A stretch of DNA of 64,000 nt from Bacteroidaceae bacterium (GTDB lineage: Bacteria; Bacteroidota; Bacteroidia; Bacteroidales; Bacteroidaceae): NCBI GenBank assembly GCA_017470525.1, contig JAFUYM010000036.1:20638-84637 (forward strand), read 5' to 3'. Both the position numbers and the translations under genes were made by a program. The notes under the pieces are model-generated. The model made no database searches. It was not told where the DNA came from and was given only the letters and a program-made list of their open reading frames with translations. Shown in pieces: positions 23,720 through 53,685 of the stretch; the stretch's first letter is position 1; the number at the start of each line of letters is the position of its first letter.

Positions 23720-23801
23720 GCGCACCCTGCGCCCATCATTTCACGCACCCTGCGCATAAAAATACGAGCACCCAGCGCCTATCATTTAGCGCTGGGTGCT
23801 C
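23720..23801. repeat. palindrome cluster 1: four units at exact 23-bp pitch, last one inverted
   Basis: Units are GCGCACCCTGCGC (centre 23726), ACGCACCCTGCGC (23749), GAGCACCCAGCGC (23772) and GCGCTGGGTGCTC (23795). All centres are 23 bp apart. Each unit has short arms around CCC, and the fourth is the exact reverse complement of the third. Ten-base linkers also resemble each other (CCATCATTTC and CTATCATTTA). Confidence 0.85.
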
Positions 23802-23808
23802 ATTTTTT
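23766..23808 (+). terminator. terminator of the MBL hydrolase gene
   Basis: Units three and four of the cluster form a perfect 13-bp stem (23766-23778 / 23789-23801) followed by ATTTTTTC. Confidence 0.8.
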
Positions 23809-24007
23809 CACAACCACCTGTCATTAGAACAATTACGTTTTTTTCCGAAGAAAAGATAAAAAACGAAGCACTCCATCATCATTTCAGGAGATTTCTCGTC
23901 AAAAGGATAATTTTGTCCTATAATTGCAACATCATCTGTTCCTAATGCCCATTTCCTCTTTGATGATTATTTAACCATTTGTTGGTATGATTGCAATAAC
24001 CACAAAA

Positions 24008-24189
24008 ATTATCGGAACAAATTATTGTTAATTATCGGTAATTTTCGGTAATTTTCGGTAATTTTCGTTTTTCCAAACCGCTTTGGAGGTGAAGGAGCAA
24101 AAATCCTTCATGCTGGGATTAGCCTCTTGCGCTGCAGCGCAAGAAAAACGATAATTACCAATAATGACCGATAATTTGTTCCGATAATT
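24008..24189. repeat. large inverted-repeat element with CGGTAATTTT arms
   Basis: The element begins AATTATCGGAACAAATTA and ends with its near-exact reverse complement. The left arm contains three tandem CGGTAATTTT decamers, the right arm fewer. Near the middle is the perfect 18-bp palindrome CTTGCGCTGCAGCGCAAG (24126-24143). An ORF on the minus strand through it is not a gene. The rest of 23809-24007 shows no feature I can support. Confidence 0.8.
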
Positions 24190-24232
24190 GATGTTTTCTA
24201 TGGAAATGGACTTATAAATCAAGATTTTTATG

Positions 24233-24240
24233 TAAATTTG
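24233..24240 (+). promoter_or_regulatory. -7 box for the BspA-like gene leader
   Basis: TAAATTTG, placed 385 bases before the ATG at 24626. This gives an unusually long leader. Confidence 0.5.
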
Positions 24241-24625
24241 CAAGCATAACCATCAACTTAAAGTTAAACACCTAAAAAACTCTGAAACAAGAAACAGACA
24301 GTACACAGACATGATTAGGAAGCATGCGGCACGGGTGTCGCTCTTCCGTGGGAAAACGTAACATAATTATTAACCAAAAGAGATTGTGCGTATTCCCGTT
24401 CGTTCTTAAAAATATAACTTGGGCTTTCTGCTCTTGTTCTCTCAACTTCGAATACCGGCAAATATTCAACATGAGAGCAAGCGGTTCGGAAGGTTCACGT
24501 CCAGATGGGCGTGAACTGTTCTTGCTTGTTTATGTTGTAGGTCACTTGCCGGTAACCAAGAAGTTGAGAATAAGCACTGAATGGTGAACGCCTTTTCTTA
24601 TTCTCAAAACCACACATAGAAAAAC
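24241..24625 (+). promoter_or_regulatory. long structured 5' leader
   Basis: The leader can fold into a long stem of 24441-24461 with 24546-24568 (CTCAACTTC and ACCGGCAA pair with TTGCCGGT and GAAGTTGAG). Inside is the hairpin GTTCACG / CGTGAAC and a GAGCAAG / CTTGCTT pairing. A 16-codon ORF at 24311-24361 precedes it. I cannot match it to a named riboswitch. The gene it precedes is broken, so the leader may outlive its function here but be active at other loci. Confidence 0.5.
24311..24361 (+). CDS. possible 16-aa leader peptide
   Basis: ATG to TAA, reading MIRKHAARVSLFRGKT, inside the long leader of the BspA-like gene and before its main stem-loop. Position suggests a leader peptide, but there is no clear ribosome binding site and the ORF is short enough to be chance. 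Confidence 0.25.
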   Translation: MIRKHAARVSLFRGKT

Positions 24626-27600
24626 ATGAACAAACAATTACTCCGAATCTTGAAAGCATGGCTACTGATGGTCGTGCTGATGCCACTTGCAGCACATGCC
24701 TATGTAGAAGAAACATGGTCTCAAGGAACCATCTATTTAGATACTGAGGGTGGAAGACAAACCGTCTATGTGCCGTCTGGCGATGTTACCACATTTAATG
24801 AATATGATGGAACAGCATGGTCATGGAGCACCAACAATTCCTCTCTGCTGAATGTACAGAAATCTTATAAATTCAGCGAATGCTCCATCATGGCTCTCAA
24901 CACAAATTCGTGGGGCGATAATAACGTGGAATTGTACTTTCAGTATAGATTCCGCCAAGGCAGCATTACCTATCAATACAAGTTGGTATGGACGGTTAAA
25001 CTCTCTGGCATCACACTCAGTGAGACATCCGTCACACTCAAAGTGGACGACACCAAGCAACTCACCGCTACCGCTACTCCGACTTCGATAGGAAACAATG
25101 GATTCTCATGGTCATCATCTGACACCAGCGTAGCGACCGTAAGCAATACAGGTTTAGTCACGGCAGTGTCGGTTGGCATAGCAAAAATCACTTGCATGGC
25201 TAATGACGGAAGCGGGAAATCGGCAACTTGCTCTGTATTAGTCAGCGCAACAGGTACAGGTGGTGATAACACGACTGCACCTACAGAAAAGTGGTCTGAC
25301 TCTGGCAATTATTCCATCCGTTGGTATAAAAGTGGTGAGAATGAATTTACAATTTCCACTTGTGAGGAATTGGCAGGTTTGGCTTATCTTGTCAACAATG
25401 GATATTCAACCTTTTCTGTTAAAACCATCAAACTTGCAGCAGACCTCGATTTGGGCGGAAAGATTTGGGTACCTATAGGTTCATCTGATGATGCATCATT
25501 CAGAGGCTCGTTTGACGGACAGAATCATACTGTCGCTAATCTTTACATAAGCAACGCGAATGATAAACAGGAATACTTTGGATTTTTTGGTGTCATAAAA
25601 GAGGTTCAATTAAAAATATAAAACTTACAGGAAGCATGAATCTTGAAAATACAAGAGGGCGTGCTGGCTGTTTGGCTGGATATGTGTATAGCGGCACTAT
25701 TGAGAATTGTAAAATTGATATGCCAATTTCGCAGACAGGATGGAATACATGTGGGTATATAGGTGGGGTAATAGGTTCCATCGAAGAGAAGGGAAGTATA
25801 GAATACTGTATCCACAAAGGGAATATTGATTATACACAGTCGGGACCACAAGGCTCTAATCGTACTAATCCCTCTATAGGTGGAATTGCAGGTTCTTCCG
25901 GAGCAGACATTTCATTCTGTGAAAATTATTCTATCATTAATATATCCCTCCCTAAAAGAATATCCGAAGGCGGTACTATAGGTGGAGGTGGGGTTAACGT
26001 TGGTGGTATTGTTGGCTATGTGTACTACAAGAAGGGAACGTACAATTATTGTAAAAGTATCGCTAATTTTAATGTGACCGATGAGACGTTAGATGCCTTT
26101 TACAACTTTCCTCTCGAGTTTGGTTATCGTATTGGAGGCATTGTGGGGTCTACACAAGACAGTAAGTCTGTCGTCAATTGCTATAGTTCTGTTCTCGATT
26201 AAAGGTACAGACAACAGGGAAAGCAGACTTAAAAGAATTATATTATGGTGGCATAAGCAATAACAAAAACACTACTATTAAAGCCTCTTATTCAAACTCT
26301 GATGTTGCTATCAATACAAACTGTTTCAAAACTGAAGGCTATCATGGCTCCACAAACTTCACCTCGGCTCAGATGCAGACACAGGCTTTCCTTGATGAGT
26401 TGAACGTCTATTCCATCATAGAAACAGGTGAACCAGTCTGGACGCTGTGCGACGACGACCCATATCCCTGCATCGCTAAACTGCACGAAGAGGAAGAGAT
26501 TCCCGTCGTGATAGAGCCTGCATATTACTTGACAGGCAACATCAATGATTGGAATAATACTGACACGTCTTACAAACTGACCAACGACGGACAGTCACCA
26601 GAGGCAAATCCCATCTACACCTGCCGAATCCCTGCGAATGGCAATAACGACATAGAGTTTTTAATGACTCCCGAATCGGGCTTAGGTGGCGACTGGAGCA
26701 AATGCCTTTCTGCCACCAAAACGAATGAAGCGGGTCGCTTTGTCTATTATAATTATAATGAAGGACGCAATCTTGTTATCACGGCTGTTGACGGGGCTAT
26801 TTATTACGACTTGACCTTCAACATGCTGGAGCAGACTTGGAGTTACATTGCCGTGTTGGGACAACAATGGAAAGATGGCGACATCTTCACCGCCAAGACC
26901 ATCGAAGGAGTGGACATGATGTTTTATGTTTTCAGTGCCGAGGAGAAGACATGTATGGTGTATTATGATGGAAAATCTGAGACTCCTGCGATAGATACAT
27001 CTACAACAGGGACAGTCACCATCCCGAGTGAGGTCGAAGGTTTTACTGTCACCGATATTGGTTGGTCTGCATTTCAGGGCTGTCAGTTCGTGAAAAAATT
27101 TGTCATTCCTGAAAGTGTAGAATATATCGGCGGGGATGCTTTTTTCAATTGCAGTTGGTTATCTGCTATTTATATCCCTAAAAATGTATCATGGATTGGC
27201 AGAAACCTCTTCCCTGGCTGCTGGAGTCTTGAGAGAATTGAGGTGGATGCAGATAACCCCTATTACGAATCACCCAATGGATGTAATGTCATTATCGACA
27301 AAACACAAAAAGAAGTGGTAGCAGGCTGTAACACCTCTATAATTCCTAACGGTGTTAATTCGATTGGCATATGGGCATTATGGGGCTGCACGGGGATGAC
27401 ATCCATAACCCTTCCACCCAGTGTTACAACGATTGGAGATGGTGCATTTGGATATTGCCATTCTTTGGAATCCATTGTTATTCCATCAAGTGTCTCTACG
27501 ATTGATAGATATGCTTTTTGGGACTGTTATAGTTTGTCAAAAGTCGTGTCATACATCGCGGAACCTTTTGAAATCAGCGAGACTGTATTTCTCTACAATA

Positions 27601-27860
27601 ATTACTATGAAAGCGTCTTTTCTGATGCGACATTATATGTGCCAGCAGGGACAAAAGAGAAATATGAGGCGACTTCTGCATGGAATCAATTCAAGATTGT
27701 TGAAATGGAGGATGAAGTCTCCATCAAAGATGTACAGGTGGAGGGCAACCGTAGCATCCAGAAAGACTCTCTCTATTACGACTTGAGCGGCCGTGTCATT
27801 AAAGAACCCGTCAAAGGTCAGATGTACATACACAATGGACGAAAGTTCATCCAAAAGTAA
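24626..27860 (+). pseudogene. BspA-like surface protein gene broken by two one-base frameshifts
   Basis: Three frames together encode one protein of about 1078 residues. Part one (24626-25621) has a signal peptide, a BIG2 Ig-like domain (SVTLKVDDTKQLTATATP) and the first GLUG-type repeat. Part two (about 25600-26202) continues with GLUG repeats (GYIGGVIGS, VGGIVGYVYY). Part three (frame open from about 26199 to 27860) has a SusE/F-like domain (YYLTGNINDWN), leucine-rich BspA repeats (ITLPPSVTTIGDGAFGYC) and a C-terminal DLSGRVIKEPVKGQMYIHNGR typical of secreted Prevotella proteins. One added base near 25600 (restoring IKGGSIKNI) and one near 26200 (restoring LDLKVQTTGK) rejoin everything. Total length plus two is divisible by three, as expected. 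It would be an adhesin-like cell-surface protein. Confidence 0.85.
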
Positions 27861-27881
27861 AAAATAGAATTAGAAAAACAG

Positions 27882-27923
27882 AAGTTCCCAACTCGAAGTG
27901 TACGCACTCAGAGTTGGGAACTT
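27882..27923 (+). terminator. terminator of the BspA-like gene
   Basis: Stem AAGTTCCCAACTC / GAGTTGGGAACTT of 13 bp, with a second small stem AGTG / CACT inside the loop, then TTGTCTT. Confidence 0.7.
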
Positions 27924-28031
27924 TGTCTTAGTGCACCTCTATTCTATTTATGTTATCAAACATACCAAAAGGTTTCCTCGTTTGTAAACTTTGCCCAACC
28001 TTTGCAGCAGAAATAAAAACAATTATTGGCA

Positions 28032-28136
28032 ATGAAACTTCACACATTAGATGAAATGACTGACTGATACATCGGACCTGTTGGAACACCCAAACGCGAG
28101 GAGTTCGAGGCGAAACTGGCGGAAGGGTGGACAAGG
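28032..28136 (+). pseudogene. remnant of an XRE/HigA-type antitoxin gene
   Basis: The frame reads MKLHTLDEMTD, a TGA stop, then YIGPVGTPKREEFEAKLAEG. This matches the first 33 or so residues of Bacteroidales HigA-type antitoxins as I recall them (TLDxxTDKYIGxxGTPxRDxFE), with the stop in place of Lys. The helix-turn-helix part and any toxin gene are absent; the homology ends just before the hairpin at 28149. In the gap 27861-28205 nothing else is visible besides two hairpins. Confidence 0.6.
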
Positions 28137-28148
28137 ATTTATATACAT

Positions 28149-28180
28149 AAAGGGGGCGCACTTGAATGTGCGCCCCCTTT
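28149..28180. terminator. GC-rich terminator hairpin, probably for the mmd operon
   Basis: A 13-bp perfect stem AAAGGGGGCGCAC / GTGCGCCCCCTTT with loop TTGAAT, lying 25 bases beyond the stop of the decarboxylase beta subunit on the minus strand. No long T-run follows on that strand, but AT-rich sequence does. Confidence 0.65.
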
Positions 28181-28205
28181 ATGCATTTGCAAAATAATGT
28201 TCTGA

Positions 28206-29375
28206 TTACGAGAGGAAGCCGAGAAGGACACCTGCTGCTACGGCAGAACCAATCACACCCGCAACATTGGGACCCATGGCATGCATGAGGAGGTAGTTGT
28301 GGGGGTCTGCCTTGAGACCTTCGTTCTGAGAAATGCGGGCAGCCATTGGTACGGCTGACACACCAGCATTACCAATGAGCGGATTAATCTTCTGACCCTT
28401 AGGAAGGAAGATGTTCATGATGTGAACGAAGATAACACCGCTGGCTGTGGCAATAATGAATGCAAATGCACCAAGAGCGAAAATCTTAACTGTTGCAAGT
28501 GTCAAGAACTCTGAAGCCTGGGTGGAGCAACCTACGGTGAGACCGAGGAGCATCACCACGATGTCGTTCAAAGCACTACCCGCAGTCTTGGCAAGACGCG
28601 TGGTCTTGGTCGATTCCTTGAGGAGGTTACCAAAGAACAACATACCCAACAATGGGAGACCTGATGGCACGATAAAGGTTGTGATGAGCAGTCCGACAAT
28701 TGGGAAGAGCATCTTCTCTGTCTGGCTCACCTGACGTGCTGGCTTCATCTTGATTTTACGCTGTTCCTTTGTGGTGAGCAACTTCATGACACCTGGCTGA
28801 ATGACTGGCACAAGTGCCATATAGGAGTATGCACACACGGCGATGGCTCCCATAAGGTTTGGACTCAACTTGCTGGAGAGGAAGATGGCTGTAGGACCAT
28901 CGGCACCACCGATGATGGCAATACCTGCTGCCTGATTGGGTTCAAAGCCCATTGCAAGGGCAATCATGTAGGCACCGAAGATACCGAACTGTGCAGCAGC
29001 ACCAATCAGCATCAACTTTGGATTGGCGATGAGCGCACCGAAGTCGGTCATGGCGCCAATGCCGAGGAACACGAGAGGAGGATACCAACCGAGACGAACA
29101 CCTTGATAGAAGATGTTAAGCACGGAGTTGTCCTCGTAGAGACCAATTTCAAGACCTGCCGCCTTGAACGGAATATTTCCCAGAATGATACCGAGACCAA
29201 TCGGAATGAGGAGCAGGGGCTCGAAGTCCTTCTTGATGGCAAGCCAGATGAAGAAGGCACCAACAGCAATCATGATGATGTTAGCCCATTCTACATTGGC
29301 AAAGCCCGTGTAGGTGAGGAAATCGGCAAGTTTGCTCCCTATGAAATCCATTGTGGAAACACTTTCGAGTAACAT
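28206..29375 (-). CDS. sodium-pumping decarboxylase beta subunit
   Basis: This is the membrane subunit (OadB/GcdB/MmdB family) that decarboxylates carboxybiotin and exports Na+. It has nine or more hydrophobic helices and the conserved GGADGPTAIFLSSKLSPNLMG region split around residue 180, plus GNAGVSAVPMAARISQ and a C-terminal GPNVAGVIGSAVAAG. The frame is open to 29438, but those codons fall in an oligomer-repeat spacer; 29375 (MLLESVSTM) or 29351 (MDFIGSKL) are better starts. It is the last gene of the epimerase, carboxyltransferase, gamma, biotin carrier, beta operon, so methylmalonyl-CoA is the likely substrate. Confidence 0.92.
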   Translation of the reverse strand: MLLESVSTMDFIGSKLADFLTYTGFANVEWANIIMIAVGAFFIWLAIKKDFEPLLLIPIGLGIILGNIPFKAAGLEIGLYEDNSVLNIFYQGVRLGWYPPLVFLGIGAMTDFGALIANPKLMLIGAAAQFGIFGAYMIALAMGFEPNQAAGIAIIGGADGPTAIFLSSKLSPNLMGAIAVCAYSYMALVPVIQPGVMKLLTTKEQRKIKMKPARQVSQTEKMLFPIVGLLITTFIVPSGLPLLGMLFFGNLLKESTKTTRLAKTAGSALNDIVVMLLGLTVGCSTQASEFLTLATVKIFALGAFAFIIATASGVIFVHIMNIFLPKGQKINPLIGNAGVSAVPMAARISQNEGLKADPHNYLLMHAMGPNVAGVIGSAVAAGVLLGFLS

Positions 29376-29486
29376 AAGTTCTAATTGAAAATTTGTAATT
29401 GATAATTTATAATAGCCATCCGGCGTGTTGTGGTACAAGGCGGCAGCATATTATAACATTATACATTGTTAATTATATATTATGAT
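29376..29486. repeat. AT-rich oligomer hairpin spacer in the mmd operon
   Basis: Left arm repeats AATTGAAAATTTGTAATTGA; the right arm near the biotin carrier stop carries complementary ATTATAACATTATACATT. A GC-richer centre (CCATCCGGCG, AAGGCGGCAG) lies between. Imperfect, but the layout is that of the other spacers. Confidence 0.45.
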
Positions 29487-29915
29487 TTACCCGATAGTGA
29501 CGAGAATGGAACCTTCCATGACGGTGTCGCCCTTCTGTACCTTGACTTCCTTGATTTTGCCATCGCGGTCGGAGTCGATGTTGTTCTCCATCTTCATTGC
29601 CTCGAGAATGACGAGTGTTTCGCCCTTCTTGACTGCTTGACCCACGGTAACCTTGATGTCGTTGATGGTGCCTGGCAGCGGAGCGCGCACGGCAGAAACA
29701 CCTTCTGCCACAGCCTCCTGTGCTGCCTTGGGGGCTTCGATGGTCTTGACTGGAGCGGCAACAGCACGCACCACTGGTTTGGGCTGAGCAACTGGCTTTT
29801 CAAGTTCCACATCGAACTCGATGCCGTTCACTTCCACTTTGGCGATATTCTCTTCAATGCCGTTGATTTTCACATTGTAAGGAGCGCCTTTGATTTTATA
29901 ATTATATTCTTTCAT
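29487..29915 (-). CDS. biotin carboxyl carrier protein of the decarboxylase
   Basis: The 142-residue protein has a short N-terminal domain (MKEYNYKIKGAPYNVKING), a Pro/Ala/Val-rich flexible linker (about residues 40-65) and a C-terminal biotinyl domain with APLPGTINDIKV and the biotinylation site EAMKMEN. It shuttles the carboxyl group from the carboxyltransferase to the membrane beta subunit. It lies between the gamma and beta subunit genes, each separated by a repeat-containing spacer of about 110 bases. Confidence 0.95.
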   Translation of the reverse strand: MKEYNYKIKGAPYNVKINGIEENIAKVEVNGIEFDVELEKPVAQPKPVVRAVAAPVKTIEAPKAAQEAVAEGVSAVRAPLPGTINDIKVTVGQAVKKGETLVILEAMKMENNIDSDRDGKIKEVKVQKGDTVMEGSILVTIG

Positions 29916-30029
29916 TCTTTGTTAGGTTTTTGAGATTTTGAGGTTTTAAGGTTTTGAGGACCTCCGCCCTGAAAGCGAAGCGACCTTATGACCTTTACGA
30001 CCTAAATAACCTAAATTAATTTTTCAATT
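29916..30029. repeat. oligomer hairpin spacer with GGTTTTAAG / ACCTTTACG arms
   Basis: The left half is a tandem 8-mer of GGTTTTGAG and GGTTTTAAG; the right half is a tandem of GACCTTAT, GACCTTTA and AACCTAAA. The two can pair around a central CCGCCCTGAAAGCGAAGCG. Confidence 0.6.
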
Positions 30030-31007
30030 CTAATTTGCTTGATGATGCTGTGGAGTCACACGCAACTCGTGGCTCTTGTCAGCCCATGTGGTGTGAGTCT
30101 GCTGGATTGTAAGAATACCTGATTCGAGGTCGTGGGTACCACCAAAGTACTCGTGAAGAGCCAAACCGATAACGGCTGTGTAAGTCTCCATATCGATACC
30201 CTTGGTCTCTGTGGTTCCCTGCTTTGCCATTTCGACCACCTTGGATGCTTGCTCGTGGATGGCACGAATAGCACGAACACGAGCCAACTTGGCAGCACGG
30301 TTCATCGCCCAACCGAAGATGTGGAAGAAAACGAAAAGGAGGATGAGACAAGAGAACACGACTCCCATGCACATGAGGGTCATGGCAATACCGTATGGAT
30401 CTTTCTCCTTAAACTCCTTGATTTTGTCGTTGTGATAGGCAATGTTCGGAGCATTTGGAGTCACCTTATCTGCCTCAAGTACTTGCCATTCAGCATCTGC
30501 AATGCGAGCATAACTTGAACCAGCAGGAAGTGCCTCTACATGAACTGAGTCGAGCAAATCTACAGCATTTCCATCAAAGAGATAGATGGTGAAAGACTCG
30601 CCCACCGGAAGTTTGAAGTTGAGGTGAAGTGTACCACGATTGGTGTTGCCGTCGGCAAAAAACGTGATGCGCTGCTTGGCAGAAAGAGAGGTGCGTGGGT
30701 CGCCTGCCGGAATCTGCGACATGTGTGTCTCACGCTCTGGAGCGGACATGTTTTCGTCGAGAACAGCAGGGTCGATGGTGAGGAAACAGTTTCTGATGTC
30801 GTGGGTGGAATAAGAAATGTTCTCAATCTCAATCCACGAAGCAGACTGTCCGTATTCATCCACATAACTTGCCGTCTTACAAGCCGACGAATCACAGCAT
30901 GCAGGGGTATGCACATAGACCTCGTTCAGTTTGAAGTCGTGTGCGCCCTGTGCGTTCATCGTCAATGCGACAGCAAGGGATGAAAGGATTGATAATATCT
31001 TTTTCAT
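30030..31007 (-). CDS. decarboxylase gamma subunit (OadG) fused to a lamin-tail-like domain
   Basis: The 325-residue protein starts with a signal peptide (MKKILSILSSLAVALTMNAQ). Residues about 25-170 look like a lamin-tail (LTD) domain (FKLNEVYVHTP, SASWIEIENISY, LTIDPAVLD, GTLHLNFKLPVGESFTIYLFDG). Then comes one membrane helix (GIAMTLMCMGVVFSCLILLFVF) of the OadG type and a cytosolic tail. Plain OadG subunits are about 80-100 residues and lack the extra-cytoplasmic part. OadG stabilises the Na+-pump complex and binds the carboxyltransferase. It is six bases after mmdA in the operon. The LTD assignment is by pattern, not by search. Confidence 0.8.
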   Translation of the reverse strand: MKKILSILSSLAVALTMNAQGAHDFKLNEVYVHTPACCDSSACKTASYVDEYGQSASWIEIENISYSTHDIRNCFLTIDPAVLDENMSAPERETHMSQIPAGDPRTSLSAKQRITFFADGNTNRGTLHLNFKLPVGESFTIYLFDGNAVDLLDSVHVEALPAGSSYARIADAEWQVLEADKVTPNAPNIAYHNDKIKEFKEKDPYGIAMTLMCMGVVFSCLILLFVFFHIFGWAMNRAAKLARVRAIRAIHEQASKVVEMAKQGTTETKGIDMETYTAVIGLALHEYFGGTHDLESGILTIQQTHTTWADKSHELRVTPQHHQAN

Positions 31008-31013
31008 GCGTTT

Positions 31014-32579: not shown

Positions 32580-32659
32580 ATTACAAAATTTAAGAATTTA
32601 AGAATTGAAACGTTGAAGTTTTCCATACAACTACTTCAAGTTTTCAGTTCTTCAATTTT
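32580..32659. repeat. oligomer hairpin spacer between mce and mmdA
   Basis: AATTTAAG repeats on the left pair with CAATTTTTCAATTCTT on the right, with AACGTTGAAG facing ACTTCAAGTT inside. Confidence 0.5.
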
Positions 32660-33172: not shown

Positions 33173-33201
33173 CGGTTTTTTAATGGTACAATAAAAGTAA
33201 A

Positions 33202-44449: not shown

Positions 44450-44491
44450 AATACAAGTAAAAAACTTTTACCTTAAAAATCTAACTGGCTG

Positions 44492-44499
44492 CAAAGGTA
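44492..44499 (-). promoter_or_regulatory. -7 box of the glycogen synthase/phosphorylase operon
   Basis: TACCTTTG on the minus strand, 42 bases before the ATG at 44449. Confidence 0.6.
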
Positions 44500-44596
44500 C
44501 TGATTTATTTTGAATTAAGAAAATTTTAGACTGAAAAACACACTTTTCACAACAAAAAATACAGTGAGACGAGATTTTGACAAGAGCAGATTACAA

Positions 44597-44667
44597 CAAG
44601 TGTACCCGAGGGGTACGGTACATCATACCCGAGGGGTACGCAATGCCGTACCCCTCGGGTACACTTG
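44597..44667. repeat. palindrome cluster 2: three units at exact 23-bp pitch, last one inverted
   Basis: Units are GTACCC-GAG-GGGTAC at 44602-44616, ATACCC-GAG-GGGTAC at 44625-44639 and GTACCC-CTC-GGGTAC at 44648-44662. The steps are 23 bp and the third is inverted by its centre. Arms 44597-44618 and 44646-44667 make a perfect 22-bp inverted repeat. It lies downstream of ligA, about 100 bp upstream of the glycogen synthase promoter. The small ORFs through it are not genes. Confidence 0.9.
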
Positions 44668-44715
44668 ATGAAAGCAACAGATTCTTCACCTGTAATAACG
44701 GCTTTCTGTACGGAG

Positions 44716-46740
<2,025 letters not shown>

Positions 46741-46811
46741 TTATTGAACGAAACATTTTGATATGTCGAGAGTTATTGACAGTTAATTTACACTTGAACA
46801 CATTTCCGTTG

Positions 46812-46842
46812 CAAAAATACAACAAAAAAAGCACTCTTCAAA
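46812..46842 (-). promoter_or_regulatory. promoter of ligA
   Basis: Minus strand TTTG (46842-46839), 19 bases, then TATTTTTG (46819-46812). The -33 element lies inside the terminator hairpin 46823-46862. Confidence 0.7.
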
Positions 46843-46862
46843 GTTTTTGAGGAGTGTTTTTG
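46823..46862 (-). terminator. terminator hairpin overlapping the ligA promoter
   Basis: AAAAGCACTCTTCAAA pairs with TTTTTGAGGAGTGTTTT, and on the minus strand a run of seven T follows. Confidence 0.6.
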
Positions 46863-46913
46863 TGACTTCCCCAACTTTCTCTCTCCTCAATGACGGTGCT
46901 TTTAATACACTCG

Positions 46914-46982
46914 TCATCGCAATTACGTTGTACCCTTTATCATAACTATGCTATACCCTTCATCGAAATTACGTCAAAAGGC
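46914..46982. repeat. palindrome cluster 4 (probable): three 23-bp tandem units
   Basis: Units at 46914, 46937 and 46960 begin TCATCGCAATTACG, TTATCATAACTATG and TCATCGAAATTACG. The first two end in the same ATACCCT/GTACCCT linker. Centres (46922.5, 46945.5, 46968.5) lie in imperfect palindromes (CG-CAATTA-CG, CATA-AC-TATG, CG-AAATTA-CG). An inverted last unit cannot be told here. Confidence 0.65.
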
Positions 46983-47029
46983 ATAGCGGTTCTGCCCATG
47001 CCCATTCAGGCGTTCCGTCCTTGCTGGCA

Positions 47030-47100
47030 AAGGTGATAATGGTATTATTGTGATTGTTGTGTATATAGGGCAACAATCACAATAATACCATTATCACCTT
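47030..47100 (-). terminator. perfect 30-bp inverted repeat after the restriction gene
   Basis: Arms 47030-47059 and 47071-47100 are exact complements, with an 11-base loop. It starts 14 bases past the restriction enzyme stop. Arms of 30 bp are long for a simple terminator, and no T-run follows. Confidence 0.85.
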
Positions 47101-47113
47101 CTTAAATACTATG

Positions 47114-48844
47114 TTATAGCATTCTACGAGGCTGTGGTGGAGGATCATTAGGAAGTTCTATCCAATGCGAGGCATTTTGGATTATCTTTGTATACCAGTC
47201 CATTTCATCCTCACCATCCTTCCTACATTTCATCGCTATATTCTTGGATGCATCAAAAAATCTACGTACATGAGTAGGATTGGGAGTATAATTTGCTTTA
47301 AAAGAATCTTCTATCAATTTTTGGAAAATCTTTAACGGCAATGGGATAATTGTCGAAGTCCCACCATAATATGACACATTTAGATGCTGCGCCATGTAAA
47401 AATGGCTGATAGAAGCCTCATTGATAGTAGGTGCAACAAATAGACAAAAACAAGGCTTTCCGCTTGACTTTTTCAATTTTCCAAGATGCCGCATGACGGG
47501 TTCTCCTTCCATCTCGTACTGCTTTTGACCACCAGCCATAGTCACTTCCACGCACACCATATAATCACCATAATCACAAACGATGTCTGACATGTTGCCT
47601 GATGCTGTAGACATAGGGTTTCCATAGTCATCAAACTTTAGATTTGCGGTAATATTGCCACCGTCAAGCATTGTCATAGCACGCCAAGTGTTCCATTCCA
47701 ACATAAGAGGTGCATCGTAAACGTCATTATGCGTAATCTGTTCAAACATGTGTTGAATCTCGTTGTATTGACGATAATCTTTTATCTCCGCAATTTGTGC
47801 TTTTATGTTATTTTCACGTCGTTTTTCCAGCAGATCCGCCAAAGTGTCTTTCAGTTCATCCAACGTAATAGAATGTGAAATCTGAACTTGCGGAAACTCC
47901 GTCCTAATCTTACTTTCTAATAATACACGATTATCTGTCAACAATTTAGGCAAATGTGTATTCCCTAAATAAGATGTATAAGATACGAGATTATCCACAA
48001 AAACAGGGTCTCTTTCTACTGTTTCCAATATATAATCGACCTCCTCTAATCGTTCTGGGACAATAGAAAGTGATTTTCCAATATGTGATACAGCCACAAG
48101 CCCTGTTGCACGAAGATAACGAAAGCAAGCATCAGCGTAATCACGCATGTTACTTGACTGAGTTTCCAAGAACTTTTTCAAAGATTTATCATTGCTTTCC
48201 CTTGTTTTTGTCTCACCTCTACTGATACGGTCATTGTAGATATTCTTCAGTTCATGATACAGATACTCTTTCCTAAAGGTTTGATAACTACCCTTATGCA
48301 TGGTTCTTTTATTACGGAAAAGTTCTATTTTACGAACAATTCTGTCAAAATCATGGTAATTGGTCAATTGCATGCCAAATATCTGTAACTCATCAAATTT
48401 CAACGTACCCATTGTACGCACAAGACGCAACAATTCCAAGTATGGCTTGATACAGAAATCCGCAGCCTTATCAGATGGTTGGTGATAAGGGGATGGCACT
48501 TGAAATTTTAACATTTGACGTAGAAAAACCTCATCTTTACGTTTCGATTTAAGAAGTTTTACTCCTGCAGGTGTCAATTCTATCTTTGGAGAGAGAAATA
48601 CAAAGCCTAACGATTTTGGTGCACGATTGATACGGTCTCTTGCACTAAAAGCAGGATCATTCGCACCCTTTCCATTGAAGAAATTTTCTTGCCGTAAGAC
48701 TTCCATGAAATCTCTTTGTGAAGTGCTGTTCCATTCTTTGCCTTCAAAATGCTGAATCAGTAAGTCTATTTCTGGAATCATCTTTTCTGGGGTTCTTGGC
48801 GATGTGGTCAAGAATAGTGTTTGGCTGTCAATTGGTTTTGCCAT
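47114..48844 (-). CDS. AlwI-family type II restriction endonuclease
   Basis: The 576-residue protein from MAKPIDSQ resembles, from memory, the AlwI-type restriction enzymes (type IIS, recognising GGATC and cutting outside). Signs are the N-terminal RTPEKMIPEID and a C-terminal nuclease region with DYGDYMVCVEVTMAGGQKQ (a likely D-E-Q/K site) and KPCFCLFVAPTIN. I chose the ATG at 48844, which overlaps the methylase gene by 17 bases; the longer frame from 48928 runs inside that gene. The gene is AT-rich, unlike ligA and asnA on either side. GGATC is inferred only from the family. Confidence 0.8.
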   Translation of the reverse strand: MAKPIDSQTLFLTTSPRTPEKMIPEIDLLIQHFEGKEWNSTSQRDFMEVLRQENFFNGKGANDPAFSARDRINRAPKSLGFVFLSPKIELTPAGVKLLKSKRKDEVFLRQMLKFQVPSPYHQPSDKAADFCIKPYLELLRLVRTMGTLKFDELQIFGMQLTNYHDFDRIVRKIELFRNKRTMHKGSYQTFRKEYLYHELKNIYNDRISRGETKTRESNDKSLKKFLETQSSNMRDYADACFRYLRATGLVAVSHIGKSLSIVPERLEEVDYILETVERDPVFVDNLVSYTSYLGNTHLPKLLTDNRVLLESKIRTEFPQVQISHSITLDELKDTLADLLEKRRENNIKAQIAEIKDYRQYNEIQHMFEQITHNDVYDAPLMLEWNTWRAMTMLDGGNITANLKFDDYGNPMSTASGNMSDIVCDYGDYMVCVEVTMAGGQKQYEMEGEPVMRHLGKLKKSSGKPCFCLFVAPTINEASISHFYMAQHLNVSYYGGTSTIIPLPLKIFQKLIEDSFKANYTPNPTHVRRFFDASKNIAMKCRKDGEDEMDWYTKIIQNASHWIELPNDPPPQPRRML

Positions 48845-49796
48845 AATATGGGGCCTCCGCTTCGAATAATAAATAATTGTTTTCTTCTTCAATAGGCAAA
48901 TCATAAAGTCCTGTAACTTCTTGAACAAGCCATCTCTTTCTATAATTCACCACAACAATATGTGATGCAACAGACTTGAATCGATTGCGTATATTTACCG
49001 CATAGTTCTTTTGGTACTCATCAACAATATAGCCACGATAAAGTTCAGAAGTAAGAGGAGTTCTGCCGATTACCATTAGAGTCTTGCATGGCAAATTATA
49101 AAAGTCTTGAGCCAATTGCCGATGACTTTCCTCATCAAAACCATCCCGATATTCTTCATTCCCGTAATCAGAAAAAGTACAATCGTACGGAGGGTCAAGA
49201 AAGACGAAATCATCTGTATTACAAAGATTGAAAATCCGTCTATAATCTCCGATATATATTTCAGCACGTTGCAACAAATCCGAGTGTGATTGCGTGATTA
49301 TTTTTGTGTTCAAATTTTTATATCGCCCAAAGGGTACATTAAAATCCCCATTTGCATTATACCGAATCATACCCGAATATGCCGTCTTGTTGATGTAATA
49401 ATAAAGTAATGCATCTGAATAACGTTTAGGAGAGTGTCCATTGAACATGGACCGCATTTCGTAATACAGCATTTCATTTCTATCCTCCACACGTTCATTG
49501 GGGTGCATCGCCTTCAAAGCATCAAAAGAATTTCTATTATCCGTGTAAATCCGCTCTACTTCATTCAACTCCTCACGCAGATGTGCATAGTCATTTCTTA
49601 CACTTTGATAAAAGTCCATCAATTTTCCATTGATGTCATTAATAATAGCACGTTGAGGTTCCAAGTAGAAGAAAAGCGCACCACCTCCAAAGAACGGTTC
49701 TATATACCGTCCTGTGAATCGAGGAATATGCCACATAATATTGGCTATTTCCTTTGACTTTCCACCACGATACTTGATAATGGGTTTCATTCTCAA
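48828..49796 (-). CDS. Dam-like DNA adenine methyltransferase
   Basis: This 322-residue N6-adenine methylase has class alpha motif order: the N-terminal KYRGGKSKEI, SAM motif EPFFGGGALFF, then catalytic motif IV DPPY (FLDPPYDCTFSDYG, near residue 200). It is of the Dam/DpnM/MboI family, whose targets contain GATC, consistent with protecting against an enzyme cutting GGATC. A second ATG two codons on (MKPIIKYRGG) is also possible. It overlaps the restriction gene by 17 bases, so the methylase is translated first. A leader of about 310 bases precedes it. Confidence 0.9.
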   Translation of the reverse strand: MRMKPIIKYRGGKSKEIANIMWHIPRFTGRYIEPFFGGGALFFYLEPQRAIINDINGKLMDFYQSVRNDYAHLREELNEVERIYTDNRNSFDALKAMHPNERVEDRNEMLYYEMRSMFNGHSPKRYSDALLYYYINKTAYSGMIRYNANGDFNVPFGRYKNLNTKIITQSHSDLLQRAEIYIGDYRRIFNLCNTDDFVFLDPPYDCTFSDYGNEEYRDGFDEESHRQLAQDFYNLPCKTLMVIGRTPLTSELYRGYIVDEYQKNYAVNIRNRFKSVASHIVVVNYRKRWLVQEVTGLYDLPIEEENNYLLFEAEAPYYGKTN

Positions 49797-49839
49797 AAGT
49801 CTGTTATTGCATATAACTGACTTATCGGGAATGATACGG

Positions 49840-50110
49840 GTTCGAAGAACCTCAGAAAAGAAAAAAGCGTGTAACGACCTTATCTACTCTGAGGTTCTAC
49901 CAAAACCCGCTCTATCGACAAGTCCGCCCACGCCAAGCGTGAGCATTGCAGACTTATTCGCGATAGAACTATTACGAAATTTGGTAGATTTCAGAGTATT
50001 CTCGAATAATCAGCTAATGCTGTTATTATTTAACCAAATGTCGCACCACCACCCTGCTCTCAGGGATTCTTGCCTTTCAGCAAGCATCGTTTACGACGGT
50101 TCAGCGGTAC
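49840..50110 (-). ncRNA. structured leader RNA or small RNA before the restriction cassette
   Basis: On the minus strand, after the -7 box at 50118-50125, the sequence makes a row of stem-loops. They are CTTGC-GCAAG, CCCTG-AGAG-CAGGG, CAGC-ATTA-GCTG and a long rod (49980-49996 with 49887-49905, 49951-49967 with 49911-49924, apex 49937-49944 with 49926-49933). The 3' rod arm (49888-49898, TCTGAGGTTCT on plus) can instead pair with 49846-49856. Between these lies a T-rich stretch (49857-49866 region). I do not recognise a named family. Confidence 0.55.
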
Positions 50111-50117
50111 TTGATTG

Positions 50118-50149
50118 CAAAGGTACAACAAAAAAAACACTTATCCAAA
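50118..50149 (-). promoter_or_regulatory. promoter of the restriction-modification cassette
   Basis: Minus strand TTTG (50149-50146), 20 bases, then TACCTTTG (50125-50118). The -33 element lies inside the asnA terminator hairpin. Confidence 0.7.
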
Positions 50150-50166
50150 ATTTTGGACAAGTGTTT
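50135..50166 (-). terminator. terminator of asnA
   Basis: Stem AAACACTTATCCAAAA / TTTTGGACAAGTGTTT, 16 bp with one wobble, followed by a T-run on the minus strand, 39 bases past the asnA stop. Confidence 0.75.
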
Positions 50167-50204
50167 TTGATAAATAAAGGAAAAATTGTGTTGTGTTTGT
50201 TTTC

Positions 50205-51242
50205 TCAGATGAGGGGCATGCCGGCTGCGGCACATTCCTTGCGCATTTCCTCGGGCCAGATGGAGGCTTGGATTTCGCCGACGTGGGCTTTGTGAAGAAG
50301 CACCATGCAGAGGCGGCTCTGACCGATACCTCCACCTACGGAAAGCGGCATTTCGTCGTTCATTAACTTTTTATGGAAGAAAAGATTAAGGCGTTCTTTT
50401 TTGTCTTCCAGTTCAAGTTGGCGAACCAAGGCTTCTTTGTCAACACGGATGCCCATTGAACTGAGTTCGATGCTGCGTCCGAGGACAGGATACCAGATGA
50501 GGATGTCGCCGTTCAATCCCTTGTAACCATCTTCGTTGGGGGTGCTCCAGTCGTCGTAGTCGGGGGCACGACCATCATGCTTTTCGCCATTGGAGAGTTT
50601 GCCACCGATGCCCATGATGAACACGGCACCGTATTTCTTGCTGATGGCATCTTCACGCTGCTTGGGGGTGAGGTCTGGGTACATCTGCAAGAGTTCTTCC
50701 GAATGGATGAAATGTATTTCATCAGGGAGGAAGGGCTTGATTTGCGGATAAGATTCACACACAAGGTACTCGGTGCGGAGAATGGCAGCGTAGATGTCAC
50801 GAACGATGCATTTCAGAAAATTGAGGTTGCGGTCTTCCTTGCGGATGGTACGTTCCCAATCCCACTGGTCCACGTACAAGGAATGGGTGTTGTCGAGTTC
50901 TTCATCGCCGCGAATGGCATTCATGTCGGTGTAGAGTCCATATCCCGACTGGATGCCGTACTCTCCCAGCATCATGCGCTTCCACTTGGCAAGGGAATGC
51001 ACCACTTCTGCCACCTGGTCGCCCATATCCATGATGGGGAAAGAGACAGGACGCTCCACACCATTTAGATCGTCGTTGATGCCGAGTCCGCGAAGCACAA
51101 ACAAAGGAGCCGTGACGCGACGAAGCCTCAATGCTGTGGATAGGTTTGCCTGAAAGAAATCCTTTATTTGTTTGATGCCCAATTCTGTTTGTGTAGGGTC
51201 GAGGAGTTGTTTGTACCCCTCCACCTTTATCAACTTGCTCAT
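50205..51242 (-). CDS. asnA: aspartate--ammonia ligase (asparagine synthetase A)
   Basis: AsnA makes asparagine from aspartate, ammonia and ATP, with a class II tRNA-synthetase-like fold. The 345-residue protein shows FFQANLSTALRLRRVTAPLFV, the TDMNAIRGDEELDNTHSLYVDQWDWE block in two parts, KYGAVFIMGIGG and the C-terminal SVGGGIGQSRLCMVLLHKAHVGEIQ. Length is standard. The single gene has a -7 box at 51302-51309 and a terminator that overlaps the next promoter. Confidence 0.97.
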   Translation of the reverse strand: MSKLIKVEGYKQLLDPTQTELGIKQIKDFFQANLSTALRLRRVTAPLFVLRGLGINDDLNGVERPVSFPIMDMGDQVAEVVHSLAKWKRMMLGEYGIQSGYGLYTDMNAIRGDEELDNTHSLYVDQWDWERTIRKEDRNLNFLKCIVRDIYAAILRTEYLVCESYPQIKPFLPDEIHFIHSEELLQMYPDLTPKQREDAISKKYGAVFIMGIGGKLSNGEKHDGRAPDYDDWSTPNEDGYKGLNGDILIWYPVLGRSIELSSMGIRVDKEALVRQLELEDKKERLNLFFHKKLMNDEMPLSVGGGIGQSRLCMVLLHKAHVGEIQASIWPEEMRKECAAAGMPLI

Positions 51243-51301
51243 ATCTATGTTTTTATTTTAGGCTGTATTGATTCGTATATGGCATTTGCCAAAAAGCGAT
51301 G

Positions 51302-51309
51302 CAAAGGTA
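51302..51309 (-). promoter_or_regulatory. -7 box of asnA
   Basis: TACCTTTG on the minus strand, 60 bases before the asnA ATG. Confidence 0.6.
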
Positions 51310-51441
51310 CGATTTATTTTCAAAACAAACACAAAAAACCTAAAAAATAATTGCAAAATGTAAGAAAAACATCTATTTTCTCTTACATTTATTATAGTAA
51401 AATGGCAAAACAGATGACTCTCTTATCTCCAATAAAGAAAC

Positions 51442-51499
51442 AAAAGATTGAAAAGACACCATTCGTTTTGCAAGGCAGTTGGCATCTTTTCAATCTTTT
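51442..51499 (-). terminator. long hairpin after the sigma operon
   Basis: AAAAGATTGAAAAGA (51442-51456) pairs with TCTTTTCAATCTTTT (51485-51499); the inner 28 bases are mostly unpaired. It lies 21 bases beyond the lipoprotein stop. Confidence 0.55.
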
Positions 51500-51519
51500 T
51501 CCGAAAACCTTTTGACAGA

Positions 51520-52623
51520 TTATGATTCTGTCTGCCCCATTCTTTTCGCTTTGCCTCGATAGATGAAACTGCCGATGGCGACGAGGATGATGAGGATAGC
51601 GAGTGCGTATGCCCAGATATGGGTGACTCGCGAGGTGGCGGTGATGGTGTAGTCGCCAGGGATGAGGCGTTCACCTGTCAGTTGGTAGTAAACAGCACCG
51701 TCCATAACGATTCCTGTGCCAGGATCCCACACCTTGCCTGGCATCGTGAGAACATAAGGAACGTCGAACGAGAAGATGTTGAAATGGGTGTAAAGTTTGT
51801 CGGAAAGTCCTTCTCCAAGAGGTGTCTCGTCATTGAAAAAATCGGCGTAGGCATTGGAATGATAAAAATCTCTGTAATTATCTTGAATTTCATGATTTAG
51901 GAGCATCATCTCACTTTTACCGATGATATTATGGTAGAAAGAATCGCGTAACGCCACGAAACGCTCCTTGCTGATGGGTGGATTGGGGATGGAATCATAG
52001 TTGTCCACCATGTATTCAAAGACGGATTGATAAAAGTTGTCATTAAACCATTGATCCACCTGTTCTTCCATCTTGCTGATTTTCTGCGACACCTCTGAGC
52101 CTGTGAGTCCCTGCATGAGGTTGGGTTGTCCTGTGAACCAGTAACTGATAACATCCTTGTCGGCATAGTCGGTGGCAGGCAGTTTGAAGGAGTCTGCTAC
52201 AGAGATGAAGGTCTCTGTATAGGTGTATTCTGTGTAGAACCAGCGGAAACGCTTCTCCAACGAAGCCTTGGATTTGATGCGGCTGCCATTCAGGTTCAGC
52301 GGAGTCTTCTGACACATCTCCTCCACAGAATTGAAGATGTTGGAGAACGTGGTGGTGACGGTGTCGCCCTCCACATCGGTGTGTGTGCCCATGAAGGCAT
52401 CGGTGTTCAGGTATTCCGGCAGAGGGTAAGCCCATTGTACATTGTCGCCTGCCCAGAGAGAGTCGCGCTCTTCCTTCGACATGACGGTGTGGTAAGAGAC
52501 TTCACGCTCGCACCTGCCGTCTTCGTGAATGATGGTGTGCAGTTGCACATTCTTGGATTTATCGCAAGAAGCGATGAACGCTGCTGATGTCAAGAGCATC
52601 AGGTATAAACTAATTTTTCGCAT
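51520..52623 (-). CDS. lipoprotein with C-terminal membrane helix (367 aa), operon with sigma factor
   Basis: From the ATG at 52623 the protein has a signal with lipobox FIASC near residue 19, then a mostly charged and polar soluble region. Near the end come VTHIWAYALAILIILVAIGSFIY, one membrane helix, and a basic tail (RGKAKRMGQTES). No family is recognised. It overlaps the anti-sigma-like gene by 14 bases and is the last gene of the sigma operon, suggesting an envelope-stress target or sensor part. Lipid anchor and a C-terminal helix together are an odd topology; one of the two predictions may be wrong. Confidence 0.7.
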   Translation of the reverse strand: MRKISLYLMLLTSAAFIASCDKSKNVQLHTIIHEDGRCEREVSYHTVMSKEERDSLWAGDNVQWAYPLPEYLNTDAFMGTHTDVEGDTVTTTFSNIFNSVEEMCQKTPLNLNGSRIKSKASLEKRFRWFYTEYTYTETFISVADSFKLPATDYADKDVISYWFTGQPNLMQGLTGSEVSQKISKMEEQVDQWFNDNFYQSVFEYMVDNYDSIPNPPISKERFVALRDSFYHNIIGKSEMMLLNHEIQDNYRDFYHSNAYADFFNDETPLGEGLSDKLYTHFNIFSFDVPYVLTMPGKVWDPGTGIVMDGAVYYQLTGERLIPGDYTITATSRVTHIWAYALAILIILVAIGSFIYRGKAKRMGQTES

Positions 52624-52984
52624 AGAGCATTCTTTTAACTTGGGTGTAACTGATTGGTTTGGGTTGACTTGCCTGCAAATAGCGTGTGTACATGTTCTCG
52701 AGCACGCTACTATGTGAAAAGTCAATTTTATGAGCGTAGGCATTTTGTGCCTCTGTCTTCACGGGCTGGTTGACATAGATGAAAAGCCCTATCAGCAGAA
52801 TGGCAGCCGCAGACGAGATGATTCGGAGAGCAATCAAAAAGGCGTTTCCTCTGCGAATTTCACCGATGGAATGGGCATCTTTTTCTGCCAGGCTTCCCAT
52901 GATTTGGTCAGTCAGTTCGTCGGGACGGTCAATCACGGGTTGCTGACCTTGCAATCGGTTGAGTATGTTATCAATCTGAGTCAT
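52610..52984 (-). CDS. putative membrane anti-sigma factor (124 aa)
   Basis: A short cytosolic N-terminus (MTQIDNILNRLQGQQPVIDRPDELTDQIMGSL) precedes one membrane helix (ALRIISSAAAILLIGLFIYVNQP) and an outside tail of about 55 residues. This topology and its position immediately after an ECF sigma gene, overlapping it by 14 bases, are typical of anti-sigma factors, but no zinc-binding HxxxCxxC motif is present. The call rests on topology and context. Confidence 0.65.
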   Translation of the reverse strand: MTQIDNILNRLQGQQPVIDRPDELTDQIMGSLAEKDAHSIGEIRRGNAFLIALRIISSAAAILLIGLFIYVNQPVKTEAQNAYAHKIDFSHSSVLENMYTRYLQASQPKPISYTQVKRMLYAKN

Positions 52985-53528
52985 ATCCTAATTGTTTTAA
53001 GCGTTCTCGAATTGTCTGTCGGGCTACGTAGAGGTTGCTCCTCACCTGTTTGGCATCCATTCCTGTAATCAGTTCCACCTCTGCCGAGGGCAATCCTTCC
53101 AAATGGCTGAGGGTGAACACCAACTTCTGTTTCGTACTGAGGCGGTCAGCCAAGACTCTCACAATGGACACCCACTCCCGATTCTCCAAGTTTCTTTGGT
53201 CATCCACCTCCGAGGCAAATCGGCGGAGTGTGGATTCATCTTCAGGCAAGGGGACTGTGTGCCGCATGCTTTTGAGCCGGTCGAGACATAGTCGGGTGGC
53301 AATTGTATAGAGCCATGTAGTGAAGCGTCTCTGCGGGTCGAAACTGTCGAGGTTTTGCCACACCCGAATAAACGTCTCCTGCACAATATCTTTCGCCTCG
53401 TCTTCGTCGCACAACAACTTCAGTGCCACCGAAAAGACCATCCGCTGACAGGTCTGAACAACCTCCCGAAATGCTGCCTTATCACCGTTTTGGCATCTGA
53501 TGATGATGTTGCTGTCTATTGAAGTCAT
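52971..53528 (-). CDS. ECF RNA polymerase sigma factor
   Basis: A 185-residue sigma-70 family protein with region 2 (DKAAFREVVQ, ALKLLCDEDEAKDIVQETFIRVWQN, FTTWLYTIATRLCLDRLKS) and region 4 (STKQKLVFTLSHLEGLPSAEVELITGMDAKQVRSNLY in two pieces). No other domain is present. It directs transcription of a regulon and is usually held by the anti-sigma partner encoded next. Its promoter is at 53745-53776, and the leader of about 210 bases contains palindrome cluster 3. Confidence 0.93.
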   Translation of the reverse strand: MTSIDSNIIIRCQNGDKAAFREVVQTCQRMVFSVALKLLCDEDEAKDIVQETFIRVWQNLDSFDPQRRFTTWLYTIATRLCLDRLKSMRHTVPLPEDESTLRRFASEVDDQRNLENREWVSIVRVLADRLSTKQKLVFTLSHLEGLPSAEVELITGMDAKQVRSNLYVARQTIRERLKQLGYDSD

Positions 53529-53620
53529 TTTCGAGTTTCTTTACCCGTGATACGACTGAACCGCACAAAAGTCAAATGAAAAAAGCACTTTTTTATTTTA
53601 TGTCCTTCAAGAACCTCCAA

Positions 53621-53685
53621 ATCGGACTGCTCCAGTCCGATGAACCGCACTGCTCCACTCCGACACATCGGACTGGAGCAGTGCG
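53621..53685. repeat. palindrome cluster 3: three units at exact 23-bp pitch, last one inverted
   Basis: Units are CGGACTG-CTC-CAGTCCG (centre 53631), CGCACTG-CTC-CACTCCG (53654) and CGGACTG-GAG-CAGTGCG (53677). Centres are exactly 23 bp apart and the third has the opposite centre. The reverse complement of unit three matches unit two on one half and unit one on the other. The cluster lies in the presumed 5' leader of the sigma operon. Confidence 0.88.

Follow-up and report, generated by a model that had tools for sequence, protein, structure and literature searches.

Intergenic palindrome arrays in a Bacteroidaceae genome are copies of dispersed repeat families with a pitch of about two helical turns

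Introduction

The closest described relatives of the elements reported here are repetitive extragenic palindromic (REP) sequences and bacterial interspersed mosaic elements (BIMEs). The elements are three palindrome clusters, A, B and C, in a 64,000-nt stretch of DNA from a Bacteroidaceae bacterium (GenBank assembly GCA_017470525.1, contig JAFUYM010000036.1). This whole stretch is called the window and covers positions 20638–84637 of contig C34 in the 3.24-Mb draft genome G000, which has 83 contigs. REPs and BIMEs are short palindromes with many intergenic copies, their families are private to a species or shared, and their units occur in opposite orientations (PMC3733652). They are found downstream of genes and between neighbours in tandem or convergent order; partners are often mismatched, and trimers are mentioned (PMC3733652). 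The clusters resemble them in these respects. REPs form dimers with variable spacers, for which no fixed pitch is described, and carry at one end a conserved, unpaired GTAG or CGTC tag (PMC3733652). Unlike REPs, the arrays studied here have no such tag, consist mostly of three units at a fixed pitch of 21–24 bp and show no linkage to REP-associated tyrosine transposases (RAYTs). CGTC-type REPs have been reported in Bacteroidetes (PMC3733652), and so have palindromic candidate RNAs (PMC8040213).

The clusters also share features with the REPIN/RAYT system, in which inverted palindromes able to fold together form non-autonomous populations (PMC8266576). They differ from it in the lack of the GTAG motif and in that four genomes rich in B elements show no Y1_Tnp gene at E≤0.001. 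BrickBuilt of Porphyromonas gingivalis, likewise an intergenic element of the Bacteroidales, contains a repeat of 23 nt that has dyad symmetry and is predicted to form long stem loops (PMC4596501); the clusters have the same period and symmetry. BrickBuilt differs in that its 1 to about 23 copies are arranged head to tail within a miniature inverted-repeat transposable element (MITE) with leader, tail and IS5-type ends, and no inverted last unit is described for it (PMC4596501). B and C elements mostly have three units, one of them inverted, and the C flanks are, by reading, unlike the printed BrickBuilt ends such as GAGACCTTTGCA. BrickBuilt may belong to the same wider class as the arrays described below.

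In the OR region of phage lambda, the operators are separated by 6–7 bp. The OR and OL triplets, each made of three imperfect dyads of 17 bp (PMC4997575), are similar in layout to B and C. A phage has two such regulatory regions, whereas dozens of intergenic copies are present here. Literature searches retrieved no publication on this element, which is no proof of its absence in print.

Results

Direct reading of the sequence bore out the geometry claimed in an earlier interpretation made from the letters alone (the sequence-only reading). The three clusters have palindrome centres exactly 23 bp apart and an inverted last unit. The centres are at 23726, 23749, 23772 and 23795 in cluster A, where a T run follows the inverted unit; at 44609, 44632 and 44655 in cluster B, whose units span 44602–44662; and at 53631, 53654 and 53677 in cluster C, whose units span 53623–53685.

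All three clusters are copies of repeat families dispersed through the genome. The B unit has 109 matches in G000 with up to one mismatch, the C unit 106 with up to two and the A unit 21 with up to one. Among the positions listed, B and C units are mostly 23 or 46 bp apart. Contig C51 of the assembly is redundant, duplicating part of C34 with 100% identity over the 1301 bases compared; the raw unit counts for G000 are therefore slightly high, and the extracted B set was de-duplicated. This set comprises 103 B elements from four genomes (39 from G000 stretches, 37 from G041, 21 from G030 and 6 from fetched G015 stretches). Adjacent B units are at pitch 23 in 206 of 208 pairs, and 95 of the 103 elements have three units. 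With the majority orientation taken as plus, these 95 are arranged ++- in 62 cases, -++ in 13, +++ in 13 and +-+ in 7. Their outer units thus face inward in 62, outward in 13 and the same way in 20, orthologues being counted separately. The 30 three-unit C elements are similarly ordered (++- in 24, -++ in 3, +++ in 2 and +-+ in 1).

The spread of the families is patchy and partly species-specific. Of 45 genomes in the genus, 14 contain the exact B unit, seven of them in at least 22 copies. The C pattern was detected in only two of the 45, with 62 matches in G000 and a single one in G011, so that family C is nearly private to G000. Five of 201 genomes of the bacterial family contain the two-unit B pattern; all five belong to this genus, which accounts for 13 of the 201. 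With one genome per species, this pattern was found by our own count in 50 stretches of ten metagenome-assembled genomes, titled Prevotellaceae, Bacteroidaceae or Bacteroidales, some of them from reindeer, roe deer, goat and sheep. In a search confined to family B and to two collections, this pattern had no match in viral_contigs, and the ligA B element had none in plasmids.

The pitch was assessed without reference to unit sequence. Pairs of similar palindromes in 590 kb of stretches from G000 are 23 bp apart in 98 cases and at all other pitches from 15 to 44 combined in 8, so the spacing is not due to chance. A blind scan for three similar palindromes (pitch 15–45, loop 0–6, one shuffle per set) returned 68 arrays from 806 kb of this genome, 64 of them at pitch 23 and the others at 21, 24, 27 and 41; these stretches had been picked around the families, which biases the count of 23s upward. 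The scan of 644 kb from eight genomes of the genus gave 17 arrays, with pitch 23 in 11, 22 in three, 21 in two and 24 in one. The 11 arrays at pitch 23 include two B arrays in G041, three of family D and one of family E (see below). Twenty genomes of other genera (369 kb) yielded pitch 22 in four arrays and 44 in one. No array was found in one shuffle of each set or in 250 kb of Escherichia coli. When the range was widened to 12–60, the genus gave pitch 23 in 12, 22 in three, 21 in three, 24 in one and 46 in one, and the other genera of the bacterial family gave 22 in four and 44 in one. A further 212 kb of loci contained arrays at pitches 20, 21, 23 and 23, both of the latter being B elements at ligA. 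By eye, the wider class comprises roughly 15 unit sequences, some of which are AT-rich and loop-free (GAACATATGTTC, TGAGTTAACTCA). Called open reading frames (ORFs) enclose seven of 26 such arrays, so a few may be coding or due to chance.

These scans support the claim of the sequence-only reading that the clusters belong to a real class whose geometry is constant while the sequence varies: triplets of other sequence exist, nearly all at 21–24 bp or double that distance. Its proposed check, comparing the 23-bp pitch with others and counting inverted last units, came out in its favour, since 23 dominates and inward-facing outer units prevail among the B elements. The fixed pitch of 23 bp holds for the three clusters and for most B and C copies but is not universal, as other arrays of the genus and the bacterial family are at 21, 22 and 24 bp. 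Spacing by about two helical turns thus extends beyond a single repeat family. AT-rich arrays of the GAACAATTATTC / TTCATAACTTATGAA type at a 21-bp pitch were seen at L126 14002 (G000), L172 20 and 17560 (G044) and L189 3109 (G015). The L126 array coincides with the beginning of a long ORF that matches FecR_C/STN weakly.

When the extracted sequence was scanned, the B units, widened by one base per side, and the units of family C and of three further families, D, E and F, were found to fit one frame. This frame is CG-N5-3-N5-CG (17 nt) with 6-nt spacers. The half-sites are CGTACCC and CGTAGTC in B, CGGACTG and CGCACTG in C, CGGAGTC and CGATGTC in D (G044), CGACATC and CGATGTC in E (G010, with a likely copy in G030) and CGGAGTG and CGATGTG in F (G015); families E and F are each known from only one or two loci. 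Families C, D and E also have flanks of the CCACAGCCTCTAAAT / ATTTTAGAGG type in common. In a chimeric array of G015 (L323, 2435–2566), three F units precede three B units without a break in the 23-bp register, and the last B unit carries one foreign half-site. The palindromes had been regarded as unrelated between clusters, which is true for A alone, B and C sharing the 17 + 6 frame. Much of the fixed pitch is explained by common descent, as indicated by the shared frame and the chimeric array. For the pitch that families B to F have in common, inheritance is the best reading, the palindrome core being exchanged in concert from species to species.

Orthologous B elements were compared at 25 of 30 flank-matched pairs, several of which share a site and are not independent. 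Excluded were pairs with two, four or five units in one partner (L034:12908/L293, L133/L309 and L286/L307) and pairs matched by a single flank only (L293/L305 and L315/L325). Differences were counted at 56 of 1125 unit positions, at 114 of 400 spacer positions and, in ungapped comparison, at 774 of 1500 positions of the 30-nt flanks. The units are kept while spacers and flanks diverge, and are therefore held by selection or homogenisation. Among 570 B half-sites, the main alleles are CGTACCC (333), TGTACCC (93), CGTAGTC (49) and CGTAGCC (18), and stem-breaking forms are retained in several orthologues. The ligA site was compared at 22 of 30 fetched loci, eight with only one flank being set aside. 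Three carry the element (G000 in the redundant contig, G030 and G041), and the other 19 have no unit-like sequence, the best match being 11 of 15 letters.

Inversions were found between orthologues. The whole middle is inverted between L281 and L308 (10 differences in direct and one in inverted comparison), and at ligA the window copy has the segment that joins units 1 and 3 in the opposite orientation to the orthologues in G041 and G030 (12 against 5). Two more sites show inversion of a spacer only (7 against 1 and 8 against 1). The sequence-only reading had suggested a generating mechanism such as template switching or slippage. Hairpin-style inversion between orthologues fits this as a modifier but does not demonstrate a generator, and common ancestry weakens a sequence-blind generator for B and C.

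The spacers keep the purine/pyrimidine class rather than the base, with a different code in each family. The code is RYRYRY in C (91–100% per position, 61 spacers), RNYRYRNY in B (93–99% at positions 1, 3, 6 and 8, and 77% at 4 and 5; 79 spacers) and RYYRRY in D (96–100%, 12 spacers). Copies within a genome share descent, so these spacers are not independent draws.

Gene contexts and ORF overlaps were derived from simple ORF calling, without a gene finder. Outside called ORFs lie 96 of the 103 B elements. The 95 that could be classified comprise 43 convergent, 44 tandem and 8 divergent contexts; seven more lie inside called ORFs and one was unplaced. The 256 background gaps of at least 100 nt comprise 46 convergent, 146 tandem and 64 divergent ones. 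In G000, at least 40 of 46 distances separating a B element from the 3′ end of a neighbour do not exceed 104 nt. Both outer sides of the B elements are T-rich, with T frequencies of 0.67, 0.72, 0.51 and 0.56 at positions 3 to 6 (206 ends). Predicted folds of 12 elements on both strands were more stable than the shuffle mean in 24 of 24 cases, and 19 of 24 appeared by eye as rods, with units 1 and 3 paired and unit 2 at the tip. The convergent placement, the T-rich ends and the modelled rods suit a bidirectional gene-end signal.

Family A is represented by 12 copies in the extracted G000 DNA, nine of which were aligned, with a length of about 225–240 bp. More A unit matches occur near contig ends (C13:301, C78:145 and C83:587). 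Units 3 and 4 of cluster A (23766–23778 and 23789–23801) form a perfect 13-bp hairpin followed by the T run, the shape of an intrinsic terminator. The far end of the family A element carries TAATTTTG, which we take to resemble the TAnnTTTG −7 box of Bacteroides promoters. Judged by these sequence features, family A may be a terminator-plus-promoter cassette.

The features of the window are listed in Table 1. Cluster A starts 39 nt past a gene for a metallo-beta-lactamase-fold protein, cluster B separates ligA from a glycogen-synthase-type gene, and cluster C is flanked by a minus-strand sigma-70-family gene and a plus-strand gene. An Rfam scan of the window gave no match at the gathering score.

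Table 1. Palindrome clusters, their units and the enclosing elements in the window (positions count from the first base of the window)
Feature	Position	Strand	Description
Cluster A	23720..23801	+	four 13-nt palindromic units (+ + + -), pitch 23
Family A element around cluster A	23698..23921	+	approximate, ~225-240 bp, from GAATGTCAATATC to GATAATTTTGTCCTAT; edges set by eye
Family A copies	window 23698-23921 and L136, L137, L139, L142, L051, L039, L038, L055, L059		
Cluster B unit 1	44602..44616	-	GTACCCGAGGGGTAC
Cluster B unit 2	44625..44639	-	ATACCCGAGGGGTAC
Cluster B unit 3 (inverted)	44648..44662	+	GTACCCCTCGGGTAC
Whole B element	44597..44667	.	short complementary flanks CAAGT...ACTTG; rod fold predicted in both strands
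Cluster C unit 1	53623..53639	+	CGGACTGCTCCAGTCCG
Cluster C unit 2	53646..53662	+	CGCACTGCTCCACTCCG
Cluster C unit 3 (inverted)	53669..53685	-	CGGACTGGAGCAGTGCG
Whole C element	53605..53703	.	~18-nt imperfect terminal inverted flanks, like other C copies and families D/E of related species

Other palindromic features were noted in the window. An array of another type at 713–935 consists of TGCGGAGTTTCCGCA-like units at a 41-bp pitch, four helical turns instead of two, followed by an inverted copy, GGCCTCGCGGGGTGTCCGC. Repeats of 41 nt occur in MITE464/PgRS of P. gingivalis, according to PMC4596501. An AT-rich perfect 30-bp inverted repeat (AAGGTGATAATGG...) with 11 nt between its arms is located at 47030–47100. 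Two perfect 20-bp inverted repeats and one of 14 bp, with 0 to 3 nt between the arms, are located at 63640–63680, 63756–63786 and 63885–63924; the 14-bp repeat copies part of the first 20-bp one.

Discussion

The best reading of the arrays is a REP/BIME-like class with a layout that we have not found described for REPs. Like REPs, which are palindromes of 20–40 bp in high extragenic copy number, the units are palindromic and abundant between genes, though at 15–17 bp they are slightly shorter and 11 of 31 C elements lie in called ORFs. Like BIMEs, they group inverted palindromic units at one locus, as shown by the inward-facing B elements (62 of 95) and by the ++- order of C (24 of 30). They are not REPs in the strict sense, lacking the tag and a RAYT linkage. 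Of 622 B and 184 C unit ends, none has GTAG next to it, and CGTC adjoins 10 of the B ends and no C end; GTAG occurs only within a minority B half-site allele. On balance, we consider it probable that the clusters are dispersed intergenic palindromic repeats of the REP/BIME kind with a new layout, non-autonomous copies that form a rod at gene ends. Their B/C core consists of three near-palindromic 17-nt units (CG-N5-3 nt-N5-CG) with 6-nt spacers and outer units usually facing inward, and the 23-bp pitch of B, C, D, E and F would be inherited. We propose that the copies spread as short non-autonomous elements through an enzyme acting in trans. Pairing of units 1 and 3, in transcripts or in single-stranded DNA, would place unit 2 at the tip of a rod, which, with a T-rich tract on either side, may end or protect transcripts from both directions. 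The repeats are scattered through genomes of Prevotella-like rumen bacteria, and the clusters are probably repeat elements that act at gene ends and not one-off curiosities.

Several observations weigh against such a mobile, rod-forming repeat. Covariation is absent between the half-sites of a unit (for B unit 1, 25 are identical where 31 were expected, and for C unit 2, 2 where 13 were expected), so no small hairpin is being maintained. Covariation of the rod pairs is weak in B, where orthologues are not independent (65 against 58.2, p 0.007; 27 against 20.6, p 0.054), and has no statistical support in C, and the spacers show no Watson–Crick covariation. AT-rich arrays of zero-loop palindromes are poor hairpins, yet they retain the pitch. 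Family C has no clear 3′-end bias, with 4 divergent, 7 tandem and 5 convergent contexts and 11 elements inside called ORFs, out of 31. No convincing target-site duplication emerged from 160 offset and length trials for B in G000, 160 for B in G041 and 400 for C. The extracted DNA yielded no convincing autonomous partner. For the 132 neighbour genes in G000, the best 25 of 95 (B) and of 59 (C) Pfam families include none that matched more than two of the 77 neighbours of B or more than two of the 55 of C; a single transposase could be hidden among the remaining families.

Some further results bear on mobility and folding. The best target-site excesses, from the best eight trials per set, were 2-nt matches at or near the ends and a few 3-nt matches at p 0.01–0.05; longer matches did not exceed shuffles at p 0.05. 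In the extracted G000 DNA, which amounts to about a quarter of that genome, the C-end motif has 11 matches, none farther than 200 nt from a C array. Inverted flanks, which in a MITE would be terminal inverted repeats, are about 18 nt and imperfect in C and only a few nt in B. Watson–Crick covariation was not found across the unit flanks, C being well below the shuffle, with p-values that are non-independent owing to the shared descent of the copies.

The rival that survives best regards the arrays as operator-like. Each unit would be a dyad site for a dimeric DNA-binding protein, with dimers side by side about two turns apart and touching, as repressor dimers do on lambda OR/OL. The specificity of the protein would have diverged, the sites of each species or family changing together, and the bound arrays would serve as roadblocks or chromosome-organising sites. 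The sequence-only reading had dismissed a protein site on the ground that its sequence would be kept. This argument fails, since B and C keep their sequence in more than 100 unit copies and B does so across species. The confinement of the pitch nearly to 21–24 bp or double across differing sequences of the genus and the bacterial family, absent from shuffles and from 250 kb of E. coli, agrees with operators, and so do the family-specific spacer codes, the zero-loop palindromes of other arrays and half-sites that behave like alleles, with stem-breaking forms retained. Lambda operators are 17 bp long as well (PMC4997575). However, no regulator family recurs beside the arrays: within the best 25 families, an AraC-type helix-turn-helix domain is found in 2 of 77 B neighbours, and none exceeds 2 of 55 for C. 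B elements are mostly at 3′ ends and not at promoters, and with T-rich ends and inward outer units they fit an RNA role better. We regard operator arrays as rather unlikely.

It is improbable that the arrays are strict REP/REPIN elements mobilised by a RAYT (TnpA_REP) tyrosine transposase. They are palindromic, mostly intergenic, of high copy number and partly species-specific, as this would require, and one weak Y1_Tnp gene is present in G000 and one each in G015 and G030. That of G000 (L025 1027–2007, contig C72) is a single RAYT-like gene of 326 aa with a weak Pfam match; the 3.25 kb around it contains no B- or C-like unit, the best matches being 10 of 15 and 11 of 17 letters, and no GTAG tag adjoins the B and C unit ends. 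RAYT as the mover was dropped on the evidence of four B-rich genomes without Y1_Tnp at E≤0.001, namely G041, G007, G016 and G028, which carry 58, 24, 31 and 22 exact B units and of which the first is 99% and the other three 77–88% complete. Local generation, in which template switching or slippage at hairpins builds triplets in place without dispersal, could account for the two whole-middle and two spacer-only inversions between inverted units, but it is very improbable and largely refuted for B and C, as the same 15–17 nt units occur at dozens of sites per genome, B in several species, and the similarity of C, D and E continues past the units into their flanks.

Dispersed repeats of the REP/BIME kind thus account best for the clusters themselves. 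Inheritance cannot account for the whole two-turn rule. In arrays of other sequence, the wider 21–24 bp rule suggests an additional constraint near two turns of the helix. It is possible, and suggested here only tentatively, that bacteria of the Bacteroidaceae/Prevotellaceae type carry a family-wide class of intergenic dyad arrays defined by geometry, with at least three palindromes about two helical turns apart and purine/pyrimidine-coded spacers. The cores would be swapped in concert between species while frame and flanks are kept, and would be read by a fast-diversifying DNA-binding or mobilising protein.

If it holds, the two-turn pitch rule provides a sequence-independent signature for machine detection of such elements. 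A species-specific exchange of cores, with the frame conserved, would open the co-evolution of repeat and reader to direct testing. At the least, the B elements represent good candidates for gene-end signals that work in both directions in rumen bacteria.

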